22,107 nt of DNA. It comes from a virus. Under the pieces are notes generated by a model. That model ran no database searches. It saw nothing but the letters and a program-made list of their open reading frames with translations, and was not told the DNA's origin. Where the stretch lies: IMG/VR virus record IMGVR_UViG_3300021363_000022, positions 1 to 22,107 of that record; one strand, given 5' to 3'. Shown in pieces: positions 6,266 through 11,771 of the stretch (the first letter of the stretch is position 1; each line of letters starts with the position of its first letter). The position numbers and the translations under genes are program-made.

Positions 6266-6737
6266 CTATCTGCTTCACTTCTTCAGCCTCAACGTCAATG
6301 ACGTTGACCAGTTCAGACTTGATTTTCAGCAGCTCGGCCTCAAGCGCATCGTTGGTGATGGTGTGCTGCACCTTCACAGCCGCGTTGATGCCCTTAATTT
6401 TGATGAGGGAGTCCAGATACCGGTGAGCACCGTTTAGGGCCTCTATGGACGTCCTAGGCTTCTTAGACTCGTTGTCGTCAGCCAACCTCATATACCGCTC
6501 AAGGACACCCTCGATGTACTCGAGTTCTTCAACCCGATACATGTCATCAATGGTCACACCCTCGGGGAGGTCTTGGCCTTGGTTGTATTCGTATACGTGG
6601 GTGAGGGCGCGCTTGTACGCATCATGCGCAGCCTGCCTGGTGATGCCTAGGGCTCCGGCGATTTTGGCGAACGACCAGCGTTTTTGTCTACGGAGTTCGT
6701 AGATTTCTGACTGGTGTTCGGTGATTTCTCTCCCCAT
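6258..6737 (-). CDS. terS: Terminase small subunit
   Basis: A 159-residue protein upstream of and overlapping the large terminase. Residues about 10-40 form a helix-turn-helix (WSFAKIAGALGITRQAAHDAYKRAL) as expected for the DNA-recognition domain, followed by a long helical region and an acidic C-terminal tail (VDVEAEEVKQIDA) that would contact the large subunit. It recognises phage DNA to start packaging. The ATG at 6737 has no clear SD in front, but a promoter-like pair ends 7 nt upstream, so the message may be leaderless. It is the first gene of the leftward packaging/head operon. Confidence 0.8.
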   Translation of the reverse strand: MGREITEHQSEIYELRRQKRWSFAKIAGALGITRQAAHDAYKRALTHVYEYNQGQDLPEGVTIDDMYRVEELEYIEGVLERYMRLADDNESKKPRTSIEALNGAHRYLDSLIKIKGINAAVKVQHTITNDALEAELLKIKSELVNVIDVEAEEVKQIDA

Positions 6738-6744
6738 GTCCGAA

Positions 6745-6773
6745 ATTGTGTCAAGGTTTCGTCAAAGTGGCAA
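6745..6773 (-). promoter_or_regulatory. Candidate promoter of the packaging/head operon
   Basis: On the minus strand, TTGCCA (6773-6768) is followed after exactly 17 nt by CACAAT (6750-6745). The small terminase ATG begins 8 nt beyond the -10 box, so transcription would start at or next to the A of the start codon, giving a leaderless message. That agrees with the lack of an SD. Leaderless transcripts are common in Actinobacteria. The -35 hexamer is the same as that of the leftward promoter at 9211-9239. Confidence 0.5.
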
Positions 6774-6816: not shown

Positions 6817-7608
6817 ATGGCTGGTTGGTCTTTGGCTCCGAATGTGGCGCAGGTCAATAGGGATGTGCGGTCTTCTGGGTTTTTGTCTGATTTGGGAACG
6901 ATTGGGGATACTCGCCATTTGGAGGGTGCGGGTGATCATACGCCGTATTCGACTCATGTTGGGAAATACGGGTATCCCACGCAGGAGCAGGTGCATGCTC
7001 AGGATATTGGCGGGTCAGATTTTTATCTTGATTTGATTGAGACGTTTATTCGCCGGTCGTGGCGTCGTGGTGAGCTTGCTGGGTTGAAGTATTTTAATGC
7101 GCTGAATCGTCATTGGAATATTCAGTCGTGGGCGTCTTGGGAGATGGCTAAGGCTGGGACGTTGCAGTCTTCGTATTCTCCGGATCATCATGTGCATTTG
7201 TCGTTTGAGAATGGTGGTGTGGATGGTGATTTGGTTGCGCGGTTTGAGGTTTGGCTGAATAACGGGCAGTCGTTTGGTTCTGGTGTTGTTGGTGTTGGTG
7301 AGCTGGAGGATGAGATGGGTGTTTCGCAGGGTGTTGTTGCTGTTGGTGATGTGGCGACGGTGTTTGGTGTTCCTGAGGTGACGGATGATCGTTGGGTGAA
7401 GTTGACGTTTGCTTCAGATTTTGGGGCTGTGAAGCTTCGTGTGGCGATCCATTTTGGTTCTGGTTGGGATTTGCGGGAGTTGGTGGTGAAGGATACTGAT
7501 AATCGGGTGAATGCTGGTTTCAATTTGCCTAAGGGTGCGAATAAGGTGAGTGTTGTGCGGCAGGATGGGAAGACGGTTCCTGTGAGCTGGTTTGTGGAGT
7601 ACAAGTAA
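6817..7608 (+). CDS. Putative peptidoglycan hydrolase (endolysin), M15/LAS-like peptidase
   Basis: A 263-residue protein. The N-terminal 140 residues contain GDHTPYSTHVG (His41), VHAQDIGG (His60, Asp63) and SPDHHVHLSF (His127), a His/Asp/His spacing that resembles zinc D-Ala-D-Ala-type peptidases of the LAS group. A Gly/Val-rich linker (150-178) joins a beta-rich C-terminal domain (about 178-263) that looks more like a sandwich fold of phage tail proteins than known wall-binding repeats. The likely role is cleaving peptide crosslinks of the host wall at lysis; a virion-borne lysin is the alternative. The start ATG has GGGGG five nt upstream. It is a lone plus-strand gene ending at two hairpins, and its codons end strongly in T or G, unlike the plus-strand genes after 9.2 kb. 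Confidence 0.6.
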   Translation: MAGWSLAPNVAQVNRDVRSSGFLSDLGTIGDTRHLEGAGDHTPYSTHVGKYGYPTQEQVHAQDIGGSDFYLDLIETFIRRSWRRGELAGLKYFNALNRHWNIQSWASWEMAKAGTLQSSYSPDHHVHLSFENGGVDGDLVARFEVWLNNGQSFGSGVVGVGELEDEMGVSQGVVAVGDVATVFGVPEVTDDRWVKLTFASDFGAVKLRVAIHFGSGWDLRELVVKDTDNRVNAGFNLPKGANKVSVVRQDGKTVPVSWFVEYK

Positions 7609-8651: not shown

Positions 8652-8881
8652 TATTCCCATTCCTTATAGGTGTATTTGACTGGTTTGTGTAGTAGGTAGT
8701 GGATGAGCCATATGGGTGACCATAGAAAGCATGTGATTGAGGTGAGGATTCCGTGCGTCCAAATGGCCCAGGTGGGAAACGGGTTTGGACTGATGGTGGT
8801 GTGTGGTGCCCACCTGGCCCAGTTTTCGGGCTGATATTTGGGTGGTTCAGATGAGGATGTTTGGCGCGATGGTTTCGACAT
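8651..8881 (-). CDS. Small Trp/Pro-rich membrane protein
   Basis: A 76-residue protein. Residues 1-36 are polar and Pro/Ser-rich; 37-64 form a hydrophobic, Trp-rich stretch (WAIWTHG ... CFLWSPIWLIHYLL) long enough for one membrane helix or a short hairpin; the tail is basic then acidic. No family is recognised. It begins 35 bases inside the upstream gene, with AAGGA eight nt before the ATG, and its stop overlaps the next start. A membrane-active early protein is plausible but unproven. Confidence 0.55.
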   Translation of the reverse strand: MSKPSRQTSSSEPPKYQPENWARWAPHTTISPNPFPTWAIWTHGILTSITCFLWSPIWLIHYLLHKPVKYTYKEWE

Positions 8882-9182
8882 GCCGCTTATCCTTTTGGTT
8901 GGTGTCGAATATGCGCCAGTAGTCGATGTCGGCTAGTAGCTGGTTGACGTCTAGGTCTCCTTCGCGGTCAAGGTAGATGAGTGGTGCGGGGGCGTCTTGG
9001 TCTTTGTGGAAGGCCAGGTTGTGGAAGCTGTACCCTTCGGGCATTTCGTCTTGGATGGCTGCTTCTAGTTCGGCTTCCACGTTTTTTAGGTTGTATTGGT
9101 TGGCCCAGATTCCGAGTTCGGCTTGGACCCATTCGGTGATGTTTCGCTGACCGGTGGCCGCAAGCCAGGTTCCGATGATCAT
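8847..9182 (-). CDS. Hypothetical protein, first gene of the leftward early operon
   Basis: A 111-residue protein with no family recognised. The N-terminus is amphipathic (MIIGTWLAATGQRNITEWVQ), followed by a helical acidic region (VEAELEAAIQDEMPEGYSF) and a C-terminal part with LIYLDREGDLDVNQLLADID. The start is ATG 9182 with AAGGAG six nt upstream. Longer in-frame starts at 9209 and 9305 would run through the divergent promoter/operator and lack an SD. It is expressed from the leftward promoter at 9211-9239. Confidence 0.6.
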   Translation of the reverse strand: MIIGTWLAATGQRNITEWVQAELGIWANQYNLKNVEAELEAAIQDEMPEGYSFHNLAFHKDQDAPAPLIYLDREGDLDVNQLLADIDYWRIFDTNQKDKRHVETIAPNILI

Positions 9183-9210
9183 GTTTGCTCCTTGGGTTGC
9201 AATTAACATG

Positions 9211-9239
9211 ACCGTACCATTGCGGCACCATTGTGGCAA
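9211..9239 (-). promoter_or_regulatory. Leftward promoter of the early operon
   Basis: On the minus strand TTGCCA (9239-9234) is followed after 17 nt by TACGGT (9216-9211), a TANNNT -10 box as used by actinobacterial vegetative sigma factors. Transcription would start near 9204, about 22 nt before the ATG at 9182, leaving room for the AAGGAG SD. It overlaps the rightward promoter and the operator repeats. Confidence 0.55.
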
Positions 9240-9244
9240 TGGTA
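9215..9244. promoter_or_regulatory. Operator: 11-bp tandem repeat within a 9-bp-arm palindrome
   Basis: ACCATTGCGGC (9216-9226) is followed immediately by ACCATTGTGGC (9227-9237), differing at one base. TACCATTGC (9215-9223) and GCAATGGTA (9236-9244) are perfect inverted repeats bounding the block. The spacing of one helical turn suits cooperative binding by ribbon-helix-helix dimers, and such a protein is encoded 10 bp downstream. The block covers both -35 elements of the divergent promoters. Confidence 0.6.
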
Positions 9245-9248
9245 GGTT
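9220..9248 (+). promoter_or_regulatory. Rightward promoter of the regulator/recombination operon
   Basis: TTGCGG (9220-9225) and TAGGTT (9243-9248) are 17 nt apart. The ATG of the ribbon-helix-helix gene starts 7 nt beyond the -10 box and lacks an SD, so the transcript is probably leaderless. The -10 box is a weak TANNNT match, so confidence rests mostly on spacing and symmetry with the leftward promoter. Confidence 0.45.
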
Positions 9249-9254
9249 AGTGCC

Positions 9255-9416
9255 ATGAGCGAAAACGAAAAGCCCACAGCAAAATACAAGCAAGTCACCG
9301 TCCACCTACGCCAAGAAGACCTAGACCAGCTAGACGAATGGGCGGCCGAAGCCACCACCACACGCAGCGCCATGCTGCGCAAAATGGTCGACGAACGCCA
9401 AGCCAACAAAAAATAG
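9255..9416 (+). CDS. Ribbon-helix-helix (CopG/Arc-type) transcriptional regulator
   Basis: A 53-residue protein with the ribbon-helix-helix layout: a short polar N-terminus, a beta strand YKQVTVHL (11-18), helix A EDLDQLDEWAAEA and helix B RSAMLRKMVDERQ after a Thr-rich turn. Such proteins dimerise through the strands, insert them in the DNA major groove, and usually repress their own promoter by binding tandem short repeats. The operator at 9215-9244 is exactly that kind of site and overlaps both divergent promoters, so autorepression and control of both early operons is inferred. The gene has no SD. Its stop TAG forms the SD of the next gene (TAGGAG). Confidence 0.75.
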   Translation: MSENEKPTAKYKQVTVHLRQEDLDQLDEWAAEATTTRSAMLRKMVDERQANKK

Positions 9417-9425
9417 GAGCATTCA

Positions 9426-10208
9426 ATGGCACTTCTTCCCGAACAAACCGGTAAACTTCTTGCCCCGCTATCACCCAGCCGCATACAGCAAGACGACAAA
9501 GGAATGGCCCACCTGGCCGCGTGGGATGTACGACGCTGGCTTATCCGAATCTTCGGACCAGCAGGGTGGAAAATCGAAACCCTGAGCTGTGAACTGATAT
9601 TCGAGAAGGCCACACAAACCAAAGCTAAGCGCGACGCTTGGTATGTGGGCTACAGGGTCCACAGCCGTCTGACGATCAAAGGTCACGATGGGAAGGATCT
9701 GACACTCTTTGAGGACGGAGCTGTTGGTGACGCCACGCTACCCAGGCTTGGCGACGCCCACGATATGGCCATGAAAACAGCCCTAAGCCAGTCGTTGAAG
9801 CGGTGCGCCGTAAACCTGGGTGACCAGTTCGGGCTAAGCCTCTACAACAACGGTTCGCCTGATGCCGTCGTTGGTAAATATCTGGCCGACCCGCTAGTCA
9901 AGGAAGTGAAGGCTTCCGAGAAGGTTGAGGGCGATACCGAGGCAAAGGCTGCCGAGGAGCAAGACGCTAAGCCTCCTGTGCGTGACCCTGACGTTGAGCC
10001 GGCTAGTAAGCCTGCGGTCAAGGAGCCTGTCCCTATAGAGGACTTGGATCGCATTTCGGCGTTGTGTACACGGCTGGATGGGGCTGATTCGCTGGCCGCT
10101 TTGGCGATTGTTGCTCAGGAGATTGCTCAGCTTAGGCCCGCTCCGTCGTCTAATGATTTGAAGGTTCTTACGGAGGTGTGGAAGGAGCGCAAGGTCGCTT
10201 TGTCGTAG
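9426..10208 (+). CDS. Rad52/Rad22-like single-strand annealing protein
   Basis: A 260-residue recombinase that would coat single-stranded DNA and anneal complementary strands. The N-terminal 145 residues contain WDVRRWLIRIFGPAGW, a YVGYRVHSRLTIKG strand pair and the signature DAHDMAMKTALSQSLKRCAV followed by LGDQFGLSLYN (110-141), typical of phage Rad52-family proteins. A charged, Ala/Pro-rich linker (157-205) leads to a helical C-terminal segment (205-257), perhaps for exonuclease or SSB contacts. GGAG lies six nt before the ATG. The coding style changes from A/C-ending codons in the core to T/G-ending codons after the linker, suggesting that the C-terminal part came from another source. It pairs with the exonuclease downstream as a Red-like system. 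Confidence 0.85.
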   Translation: MALLPEQTGKLLAPLSPSRIQQDDKGMAHLAAWDVRRWLIRIFGPAGWKIETLSCELIFEKATQTKAKRDAWYVGYRVHSRLTIKGHDGKDLTLFEDGAVGDATLPRLGDAHDMAMKTALSQSLKRCAVNLGDQFGLSLYNNGSPDAVVGKYLADPLVKEVKASEKVEGDTEAKAAEEQDAKPPVRDPDVEPASKPAVKEPVPIEDLDRISALCTRLDGADSLAALAIVAQEIAQLRPAPSSNDLKVLTEVWKERKVALS

Positions 10209-10265: not shown

Positions 10266-10309
10266 TTGACGGCATTGCCGCAACGTTGCTACACTGTTGT
10301 CACAACGTT
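10266..10309 (+). promoter_or_regulatory. Promoter with palindrome around the -10 box, upstream of the exonuclease operon
   Basis: TTGACG (10266-10271) and TACACT (10290-10295) are 18 nt apart, a near-consensus pair. AACGTTG (10282-10288) and CAACGTT (10303-10309) form a perfect inverted repeat with 14 nt between, enclosing the -10 box and the likely start site; GTTGTCACAAC (10296-10306) is a further small palindrome. A DNA-binding protein could regulate here, but its identity is unknown: the sequence differs from the 9.2-kb operator. Confidence 0.65.
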
Positions 10310-10324
10310 CTAGGGAGCATCGAA

Positions 10325-10522
10325 ATGGACCTCACCAAACTCACCAAACTAGAAGAGATTCACTACCCCGTCGAGGTCATCTACTTCAGCCAAGACGGCA
10401 TGAAAGAAGGATGGGTCGACGTGTGCGAACACTGCGACGCCCTCGACGACAAATACGGTGCCCTGTGGCCATGCGAAACCATGCAAGACGCCTACTACGA
10501 ATACGAACAGGACAATGCATGA
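10325..10522 (+). CDS. Small protein with CxxC...WPC motif
   Basis: A 65-residue acidic protein with VCEHC (Cys34, Cys37) and, thirteen residues on, WPCET (Cys50). The CxHC...WPC pattern recurs in small actinophage early proteins and suggests a zinc site, though a clear fourth ligand (perhaps His36) is uncertain. AGGGAG lies about 8 nt before ATG 10325 and the promoter at 10266-10295 directly precedes it, which decides against the longer frame starting at 10178 inside the Rad52-like gene. The stop overlaps the next ATG (ATGA). Confidence 0.7.
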   Translation: MDLTKLTKLEEIHYPVEVIYFSQDGMKEGWVDVCEHCDALDDKYGALWPCETMQDAYYEYEQDNA

Positions 10523-10593: not shown

Positions 10594-10762
10594 ACCTAAA
10601 CGTTTCGCCTATCTGCAAGAACTCCGCGCGCATCTTGACCAGCTCGGATACCCGCAACACATCATCAACCAGCAACTACAGGAGCACCCGTGGAGCAGTC
10701 AGTTCGCGACACCATCGAAACGTACAGCGACCAGTACTGGGATTACCGCAAAACTTGCCTAG
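10586..10762 (+). CDS. Hypothetical 58-residue protein overlapping the exonuclease start
   Basis: ATG 10586 lies 8 bases inside the preceding micro-ORF. The first 36 residues (MTKPKRFAYLQELRAHLDQL, then a second amphipathic helix ending QEHPW) look like a real helical hairpin. The last 20 residues lie in another frame of the exonuclease gene, and their Ser/Thr/Ala composition looks like read-over. Stopping at 10762 gives a 73-base overlap. The segment 10594-10689 would otherwise be empty, which supports the gene. No function recognised. Confidence 0.5.
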   Translation: MTKPKRFAYLQELRAHLDQLGYPQHIINQQLQEHPWSSQFATPSKRTATSTGITAKLA

Positions 10763-11370
10763 GAGCATCAGAGATTAGCGCCCTTATCGGCGCTAACCCT
10801 TGGAGCGGGCCGGAGGATGTGTGGGCGGACAAGCGAGGGGCTGGCCGTCCACAACCTGACTCCAGTATCAACACACCGATTTGGTGGGGACATCAGGAGG
10901 AACCCCACATCATCAAGGCCGCCCTATGGGAACTGGCAGGAGATTTTCCACCGGCAACCGTCATTCCCGGTAAGACGTGGGTAATAGACGATTTCATGGC
11001 TTCACCTGACGCAGTATTTTGTGATTCGAAGAAGCTTATTAGTGGGAAGACGGCAATCATAGAAGCGAAAGTGGTCGGGATACGTTCCGGTTATCTATGG
11101 CGGTACGGACCTCCTCATCATGTTCTAGCCCAGGTGCATGCACAGATGACTGTCACTGGCTCGACTATGGCTCATGTTGCGGCTCGCATCGCTGGAGCCC
11201 CTGTGAAGGTGTGGAGCGTCAAGAGGGACGAGATGGCATGCAAGGGGATCTTGAAAGTGGTGAAAGCGTTTTGGTCTTATGAAGAGATGCCGCCCCACTG
11301 GGAGATGATCACGGACGCAGCGTTCGTACACACCCTGGGAAACAACGCCGATGTTTTGGAGGAATTGTGA
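10690..11370 (+). CDS. YqaJ-like viral exonuclease (lambda Exo family)
   Basis: A 226-residue nuclease that would resect double-stranded DNA ends to give single strands for the Rad52-like partner. Family features are LGASEISALIGANPW (24-38), WGHQEEPHI with Glu71, the SPDA motif (Asp107), IIEAKV with Glu125/Lys127, and HVLAQVHAQM with Gln148, together the PD-(D/E)xK metal site of YqaJ enzymes. The start is GTG 10690 with GGAG five nt upstream. It overlaps the VRR-NUC gene as GTGA, so the two are coupled. Length is normal for the family. Confidence 0.85.
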   Translation: MEQSVRDTIETYSDQYWDYRKTCLGASEISALIGANPWSGPEDVWADKRGAGRPQPDSSINTPIWWGHQEEPHIIKAALWELAGDFPPATVIPGKTWVIDDFMASPDAVFCDSKKLISGKTAIIEAKVVGIRSGYLWRYGPPHHVLAQVHAQMTVTGSTMAHVAARIAGAPVKVWSVKRDEMACKGILKVVKAFWSYEEMPPHWEMITDAAFVHTLGNNADVLEEL

Positions 11371-11771
11371 AAGAGGAGGCGTTTCGTCAGCAGGTGCGCA
11401 AAATAGCCCGCATGTACGGGTGGACGCTCATGTACCACACGCACTCAAGCGTGAGAAGCGATCCGGGTTTCCCGGATGAGGTGCTTTTGAACAAAACTCA
11501 GAAGCGTGTACTTTTCATCGAGTTCAAGTCCGAGAAGGGCCGTGTACGTCCGGCGCAAAAGGAGTGGATCGAGGCGTTGCAGTTGTGCGGCCAGGAGGCG
11601 GCGATCTGGCGTCCGTCGGACATGGAGCAGATCGTTAAGGTTCTCGGTCCTAGCCATCTTTGTCTCTACACTGGTGCCCCTTTCGCTTTCACTGCTCACC
11701 CCGGGACTGAAACAACTAGCGAAGGTTGGGTTTTCGGCTCCGAGGAACAAGAAGTTGGTACCCCAGGCTAG
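11367..11771 (+). CDS. VRR-NUC domain nuclease
   Basis: A 134-residue protein with GFPDEVL (Asp37), VLFIEFKSEKGRVRPAQKEW (Glu52, Lys54, Gln64) and IWRPSDMEQIV, the full set of VRR-NUC motifs of the PD-(D/E)xK group. Stand-alone phage VRR-NUC proteins act as structure-specific nucleases, probably resolving branched intermediates before packaging. GTG 11367 overlaps the exonuclease stop; GGAGG lies just before it. Residues after about 97 (Pro/Thr/Gly-rich) lie beyond the core. It is the last gene of the rightward operon. Confidence 0.85.
   Translation: MKEEAFRQQVRKIARMYGWTLMYHTHSSVRSDPGFPDEVLLNKTQKRVLFIEFKSEKGRVRPAQKEWIEALQLCGQEAAIWRPSDMEQIVKVLGPSHLCLYTGAPFAFTAHPGTETTSEGWVFGSEEQEVGTPG

Follow-up and report, generated by a model that had tools for sequence, protein, structure and literature searches.

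The window analysed here is the entire 22,107 base IMG/VR record IMGVR_UViG_3300021363_000022, from an uncultivated phage, and the question raised by the locus is what is controlled from a region in which two divergent promoters overlap and which encodes a very small ribbon-helix-helix (RHH) protein. An earlier interpretation, made from the letters alone and called here the sequence-only reading, had taken it for a minimal switch used by the phage in place of a Cro/CI type arrangement. We suggest that the region (PR/PL) is probably the autoregulatory node of a genome-wide regulon of early genes, which would be under the control of a self-repressing 53-amino acid RHH protein.

In the window the virion genes lie on the minus strand and the recombination genes on the plus strand. 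No near match was found among 50,697 phage records, and near and distant DNA searches of the phage collection revealed no useful relatives, the Rad52 gene apart. Since the nearest homologs of the Rad52-type protein come from actinobacterial phages, including those of Streptomyces and Microbacterium, the host is likely to be an actinobacterium. Scans of the viral collection with alignments of the RHH protein, the leftward gene, the YqaJ protein and the terminase returned, for this locus, only two contigs: G001 (IMGVR 3300020027_000034, 21.6 kb; loci L002 and L032) and G002 (IMGVR 3300021408_000092, 37.1 kb; loci L018 and L030), with terminases 84% and 74% identical to that of the window. The comparison set is made up of three related phages, two of which (the window and G001) are represented by fragments. 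For G002 a near-complete sequence is suggested by its first gene, which specifies the rear portion of a major head protein, as if the two contig ends fell inside that gene. The order leftward gene, RHH gene, recombination gene is kept in both relatives, and searches with the RHH and leftward proteins against phages, plasmids and bacterial genomes yielded no significant matches.

Promoter PR (9220-9248, plus strand) consists of TTGCGG (9220-9225), a 17 bp spacer and TAGGTT (9243-9248), with the ATG of the RHH gene 6 nt downstream. Promoter PL (9211-9239, minus strand) consists of TTGCCA (9239-9234), a 17 bp spacer and TACGGT (9216-9211), and its leader carries AAGGAG. The two divergent promoter-like pairs are therefore present as the sequence-only reading described them, with a total span of 38 bp (9211-9248). 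Their boxes are weak matches to the sigma-70 consensus (6/12 for PR and 8/12 for PL) and, since a generic sigma-70 scan flagged neither of them, the support for these promoters is comparative. The loose pattern TTGN3-17-TAN3T occurs six times on the two strands of the window, and PR and PL, which account for two of these matches, are the sole overlapping divergent pair among them. In all three phages the rightward promoter has the form TTGCNN-17-TANGNT, with six bases between it and the ATG of the RHH gene (TTGCCA-17-TATGGT, 6 nt, ATG in both L002 and L018), while a counterpart of PL is kept before the orthologous leftward gene (G001 6990+, G002 15382+); the 17 bp spacing is preserved at both promoters in the two related contigs. 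It is this conservation in G001 and G002, and not the strength of the boxes, that makes the predicted PR and PL convincing as promoters. The first gene of the PL operon (8847-9182, minus strand) specifies a conserved protein of 111 amino acids which is 48-51% identical to its orthologues and has no Pfam or PHROG match.

The first rightward gene (9255-9416, plus strand) does encode, as had been claimed, a 53-residue RHH protein (CopG/RHH_1; Pfam RHH_1 24.6 bits, cut-off 20.5), which we propose as the early-gene repressor. Its orthologues show 44% (G001) and 42% (G002) identity, and RHH_1 scores above the cut-off in all three contigs, with one copy in each. Judged from RHH structures, Q13, T15 and H17 are its presumed contact residues. 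A monomer structure model of low confidence (pLDDT 68.6) has two helices and no strand; when this uncertain model was submitted to Foldseek the matches were weak, with RHH antitoxins leading and a best E value of 4.4. No credible RHH match came from a sequence search of the PDB. In the window a start upstream of 9255 is excluded by a stop codon in frame, TAG at 9243-9245, and in all three phages the A of the RHH ATG sits exactly on the predicted +1. No good ribosome-binding site precedes this ATG, whereas the genes served by the remaining array promoters, described below, do have one. The spacing between the -10 box and the ATG in the three phages predicts a leaderless RHH mRNA, a point absent from the sequence-only reading. 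The second gene after PR (9426-10208, plus strand) specifies the Rad52-type single-strand annealing protein (Pfam Rad52_Rad22, 4e-17). At L018 of G002 the RHH gene, its promoter and its place are kept though the downstream recombinase has been replaced; here (L018:4671-5261) the front of the Rad52-type gene is swapped for a phrog_23738-type gene, and its tail end remains.

Two repeats described in the sequence-only reading were found across PR and PL: an 11 bp tandem repeat, ACCATTGCGGC/ACCATTGTGGC, at 9216-9237, and a perfect 9 bp inverted repeat, TACCATTGC/GCAATGGTA, at 9215-9223 and 9236-9244. Both -35 boxes had been placed inside the tandem repeat, which is correct for the rightward box but only partly so for the leftward one (9234-9239), as the repeat ends at 9237. 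Together these elements make up a putative operator array (9215-9244) with octamers at 9215, 9226 and 9237, and a weak fourth at 9204, in an 11 bp period; the inverted repeat forms its outer ends. Retention of the RHH gene with loss of the repeat, which had been named as an outcome contrary to the proposal, is not the case in either relative found. In these the intergenic region is longer and each promoter has its own array, while the window has a compact arrangement with one shared array. These comparisons support the view that the PR/PL repeat would behave like a helically phased operator.

A third promoter, P3 (10266-10295, plus strand; TTGACG-18-TACACT), is the only sigma-70 hit between 8000 and 11000 and has a counterpart, TTGACA-18-TACAGT, in both relatives. 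It, too, is overlaid by a putative operator array (10270-10310), with octamers at 10270, 10281, 10292 and 10303 in an 11 bp period, running from the -35 box into the leader. P3 and its array, which are absent from the sequence-only reading, lie ahead of a small gene and, beyond it, the YqaJ/VRR-NUC block. The small gene (65 amino acids; 10325-10522) has its own ribosome-binding site and is conserved in L002 and L018; it is followed by genes for a YqaJ-like recombination exonuclease (10690-11370; Pfam YqaJ, 1.2e-11) and a VRR-NUC nuclease (11367-11771; Pfam VRR_NUC, 1.3e-10), all on the plus strand.

The three contigs were scanned for promoter-like pairs with octamers in an 11 bp period, which revealed PR, PL and P3 together with further promoters in G001 and G002. 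Octamers of this period, near-palindromic and CAAYGKTG-like, lie over three promoters of the window; each relative has seven such promoters, namely those of its matrix sites described below, P3 and, from the divergent pair, the weaker leftward member. Three-octamer arrays scoring ≥20 were found 11 times at period 11, against 0.33 expected; at the other periods there were none at 9, 10, 12, 13 and 14, three at 8 and one at 15. These same sites were the source of the octamer consensus, which makes the other periods the fair control. Simple octamer pairs at a distance of 11 (11 against 2.5 expected) give a weak result, the octamer being degenerate, and the analysis relied instead on arrays of three sites and on held-out matrices. 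A 29 bp promoter/operator matrix detected 12 strong sites of 31-42 bits, compared with a shuffle maximum of 16.5; two of the 12 (G002 27976 and G002 24627) were outside the training set, and both lie before genes. When each genome in turn was left out, the full matrices recovered the sites of the held-out genome. A matrix of the 17 bp spacer without the -35 and -10 boxes, trained on the other two phages, gave as the top three matches in the window P3 (19.7), PR (17.9) and PL (16.8), with shuffle maxima of 14.0-16.7 which leave a thin margin for PL; the training of the matrices did not at any point include P3. A 14-base site pattern matched only G001 and G002, and no other contig, in the IMG/VR viral collection.

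The majority of the array promoters precede recombination, replication(-initiation) or small genes. Both relatives possess an overlapping divergent pair with the same array (L032:10330-10371 and L030:11831-11875), the leftward promoter of which faces a replication-initiation-like gene. The term "early" may not fit all of the array promoters, because one in each relative (G001 16095, G002 24627) leads to a 55-amino acid gene and then to a gene judged by eye to be tail-fibre-like. A weak three-octamer array in the window (6741-6773, score 19), which may be due to chance, sits in a divergent gap between the 5' side of a minus-strand gene at 6737 and a plus-strand gene at 6817. The latter (6817-7608; 263 amino acids) is kept in both relatives and lacks a good Pfam or PHROG match; its resemblance to a lysis-type peptidase is by eye only.

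We propose the following mechanism. PR would give a leaderless transcript from which both the RHH protein and the Rad52-type recombinase are translated. Arc dimers are spaced on their DNA by about a turn of the helix; on octamers 11 bp apart, RHH dimers would similarly be neighbours on the same helical face and could bind cooperatively. The bound dimers would cover the region from -35 to -10 or, at P3, from -35 into the leader, and it is because the sites cover -35 to -10 that the effect of binding is predicted to be repression. As the RHH protein accumulated, its own promoter would be shut off, and so would PL, P3 and the rest of the promoters that carry arrays, with their recombination, replication and small genes; we infer that the purpose is a timed early shut-off. 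The RHH protein is the best candidate for the binder of the arrays because it is the only RHH protein of each contig, is present in all three and is encoded directly at one array.

It might be argued that the arrays are indeed operators of a phage regulon but that they are bound by something else, either an HTH protein encoded beyond the window or a host factor, with the RHH protein acting elsewhere or in fine-tuning. G002 encodes an HTH_17 protein and a 74-amino acid protein weakly like the CII regulator (E value 0.003), and the window and G001 are fragments. The RHH protein, however, is the sole DNA-binding regulator detected in all three contigs, from each of which the HTH_3 domain is absent; the gene calls for the corresponding operon of G001 do not include the 74-amino acid protein; and near-palindromic sites repeated in tandem at one helical turn are of a kind that suits RHH proteins. 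We consider another binder unlikely.

A Cro/CI switch needs two opposing regulators. The divergent partner of the RHH gene is the unmatched 111-amino acid protein, no opposing repressor was found in the three contigs, from which HTH_3 is absent, and the Cro/CI-type switch was rejected. The integrase families PF00589 and PF00239 were without a match in the window and G001, which are fragments, and in G002, which looks near-complete. The array at PR/PL is, moreover, one of several in the genome, and the "minimal switch" was not upheld. What survives of the claim that one RHH protein could control both operons is the conserved promoters, the helically phased operator-like repeat and the position of the RHH protein as first rightward product; since a single repressor would cover both promoters, PR/PL points to a coordinate shut-off rather than to a two-state switch.

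The possibility of lysogeny deserves separate mention. That a phage which does not integrate should depend on the 53-residue RHH protein alone both for immunity and for the silencing of its early promoters as master repressor, by way of the 11 bp phased arrays and with a leaderless mRNA for the protein, strikes us as distinctly unlikely. We regard as very unlikely the reading, close to the original proposal, in which a temperate phage that does not integrate has the RHH protein as its immunity repressor and the divergent promoters as its lysogeny switch. Plasmid-transfer-like genes (DUF2637, FtsK/SpoIIIE-like, AlpA-like) in the near-complete G002 would be in keeping with it, and leaderless repressor mRNAs have a precedent in that of lambda cI transcribed from PRM. 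Against this, no integrase, ParA or opposing repressor was found, and the RHH gene shares an operon with lytic recombination genes, hence its expression would not be separate from theirs. The G002 region concerned (L030:13277-16759) encodes the AlpA-like HTH_17 protein and DUF2637 as well as a fusion of an FtsK/SpoIIIE-like protein with a GIY-YIG nuclease; no integrase was found in G002, and an extrachromosomal, temperate life is possible for this phage. A partition-site reading was dropped, there being no match to ParA (AAA_31) and a period of 11 being wrong for it. Lastly, while the majority of sites have a fixed place within TTGNNN-17-TANNGT promoters, it is highly improbable that the motif merely belongs to a promoter consensus shared by these phages, as an extended spacer read by RNA polymerase or a sigma factor, because P3 carries the array in another register, with an 18 bp spacer and other boxes, and was found by a matrix lacking the -35 and -10 boxes, and in addition the sites have an 11 bp periodicity with the neighbouring periods empty and one array serves two opposite promoters.

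If the RHH protein is the common repressor of the array promoters, the timing of most early genes in such a phage would depend on a single regulator that is among the smallest possible, and its binding rule, octamers at an 11 bp period, could be read from the sequence. The three octamers present at most promoters and the four at P3 are natural variants for testing cooperative binding by RHH proteins, and the shared array of the window and the separate arrays of its relatives allow a test of what the overlap of promoters contributes to divergent repression. The array motif is also a ready tool for promoter finding in related uncultivated phages.

In the literature searched, which left most subscription papers outside and is no proof of absence, we found no phage RHH regulator of several early promoters, and among known systems none that combines an RHH protein with 11 bp arrays over phage promoters. 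The nearest in working principle is omega (ParB) of plasmid pSM19035, a small RHH global regulator of several promoters including its own, which are overlapped by tandem short repeats (PMC9499535). As proposed for the window phage, one small RHH protein acts there over several promoters via repeats; omega, however, recognizes 7 bp heptads in runs of 7-10 that are also a centromere operating with ParA, while here the period is 11 bp, the sites number 3-4 and there is no AAA_31 (ParA) match. Arc and Mnt act at one immunity region, whereas here the sites lie over several promoters. Both are small RHH repressors encoded by phage P22 (PMC3325190), and it is as such, not as orthologues, that we liken them to the present protein. 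Among actinophages the nearest in layout is mycobacteriophage BPs, in which one repressor, gp33, binds five regions and acts at four promoters, with divergent promoters beside its own gene (PMC4557955). That protein is of 103/136 amino acids, its two-part operators are based on a 12 bp palindrome and its immunity is integration-dependent; it is not an RHH-array system. The stoperators of mycobacteriophage L5 and Cluster A are likewise numerous repressor sites spread across an actinophage genome (PMC9283540), but they are asymmetric 13-mers, bound by monomers, which also block elongation and lie in transcribed intergenic gaps, in contrast to the near-symmetric phased octamers seen here on promoters. 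Repeated elements are also found near gene starts in other actinophage genomes, namely the 17 bp repeats of Cluster O and the SAS/ESAS elements of Cluster K (PMC4351075, PMC3203893). These have other sequences and no binder was assigned to them in those papers, while in the window phage a candidate regulator adjoins a site.
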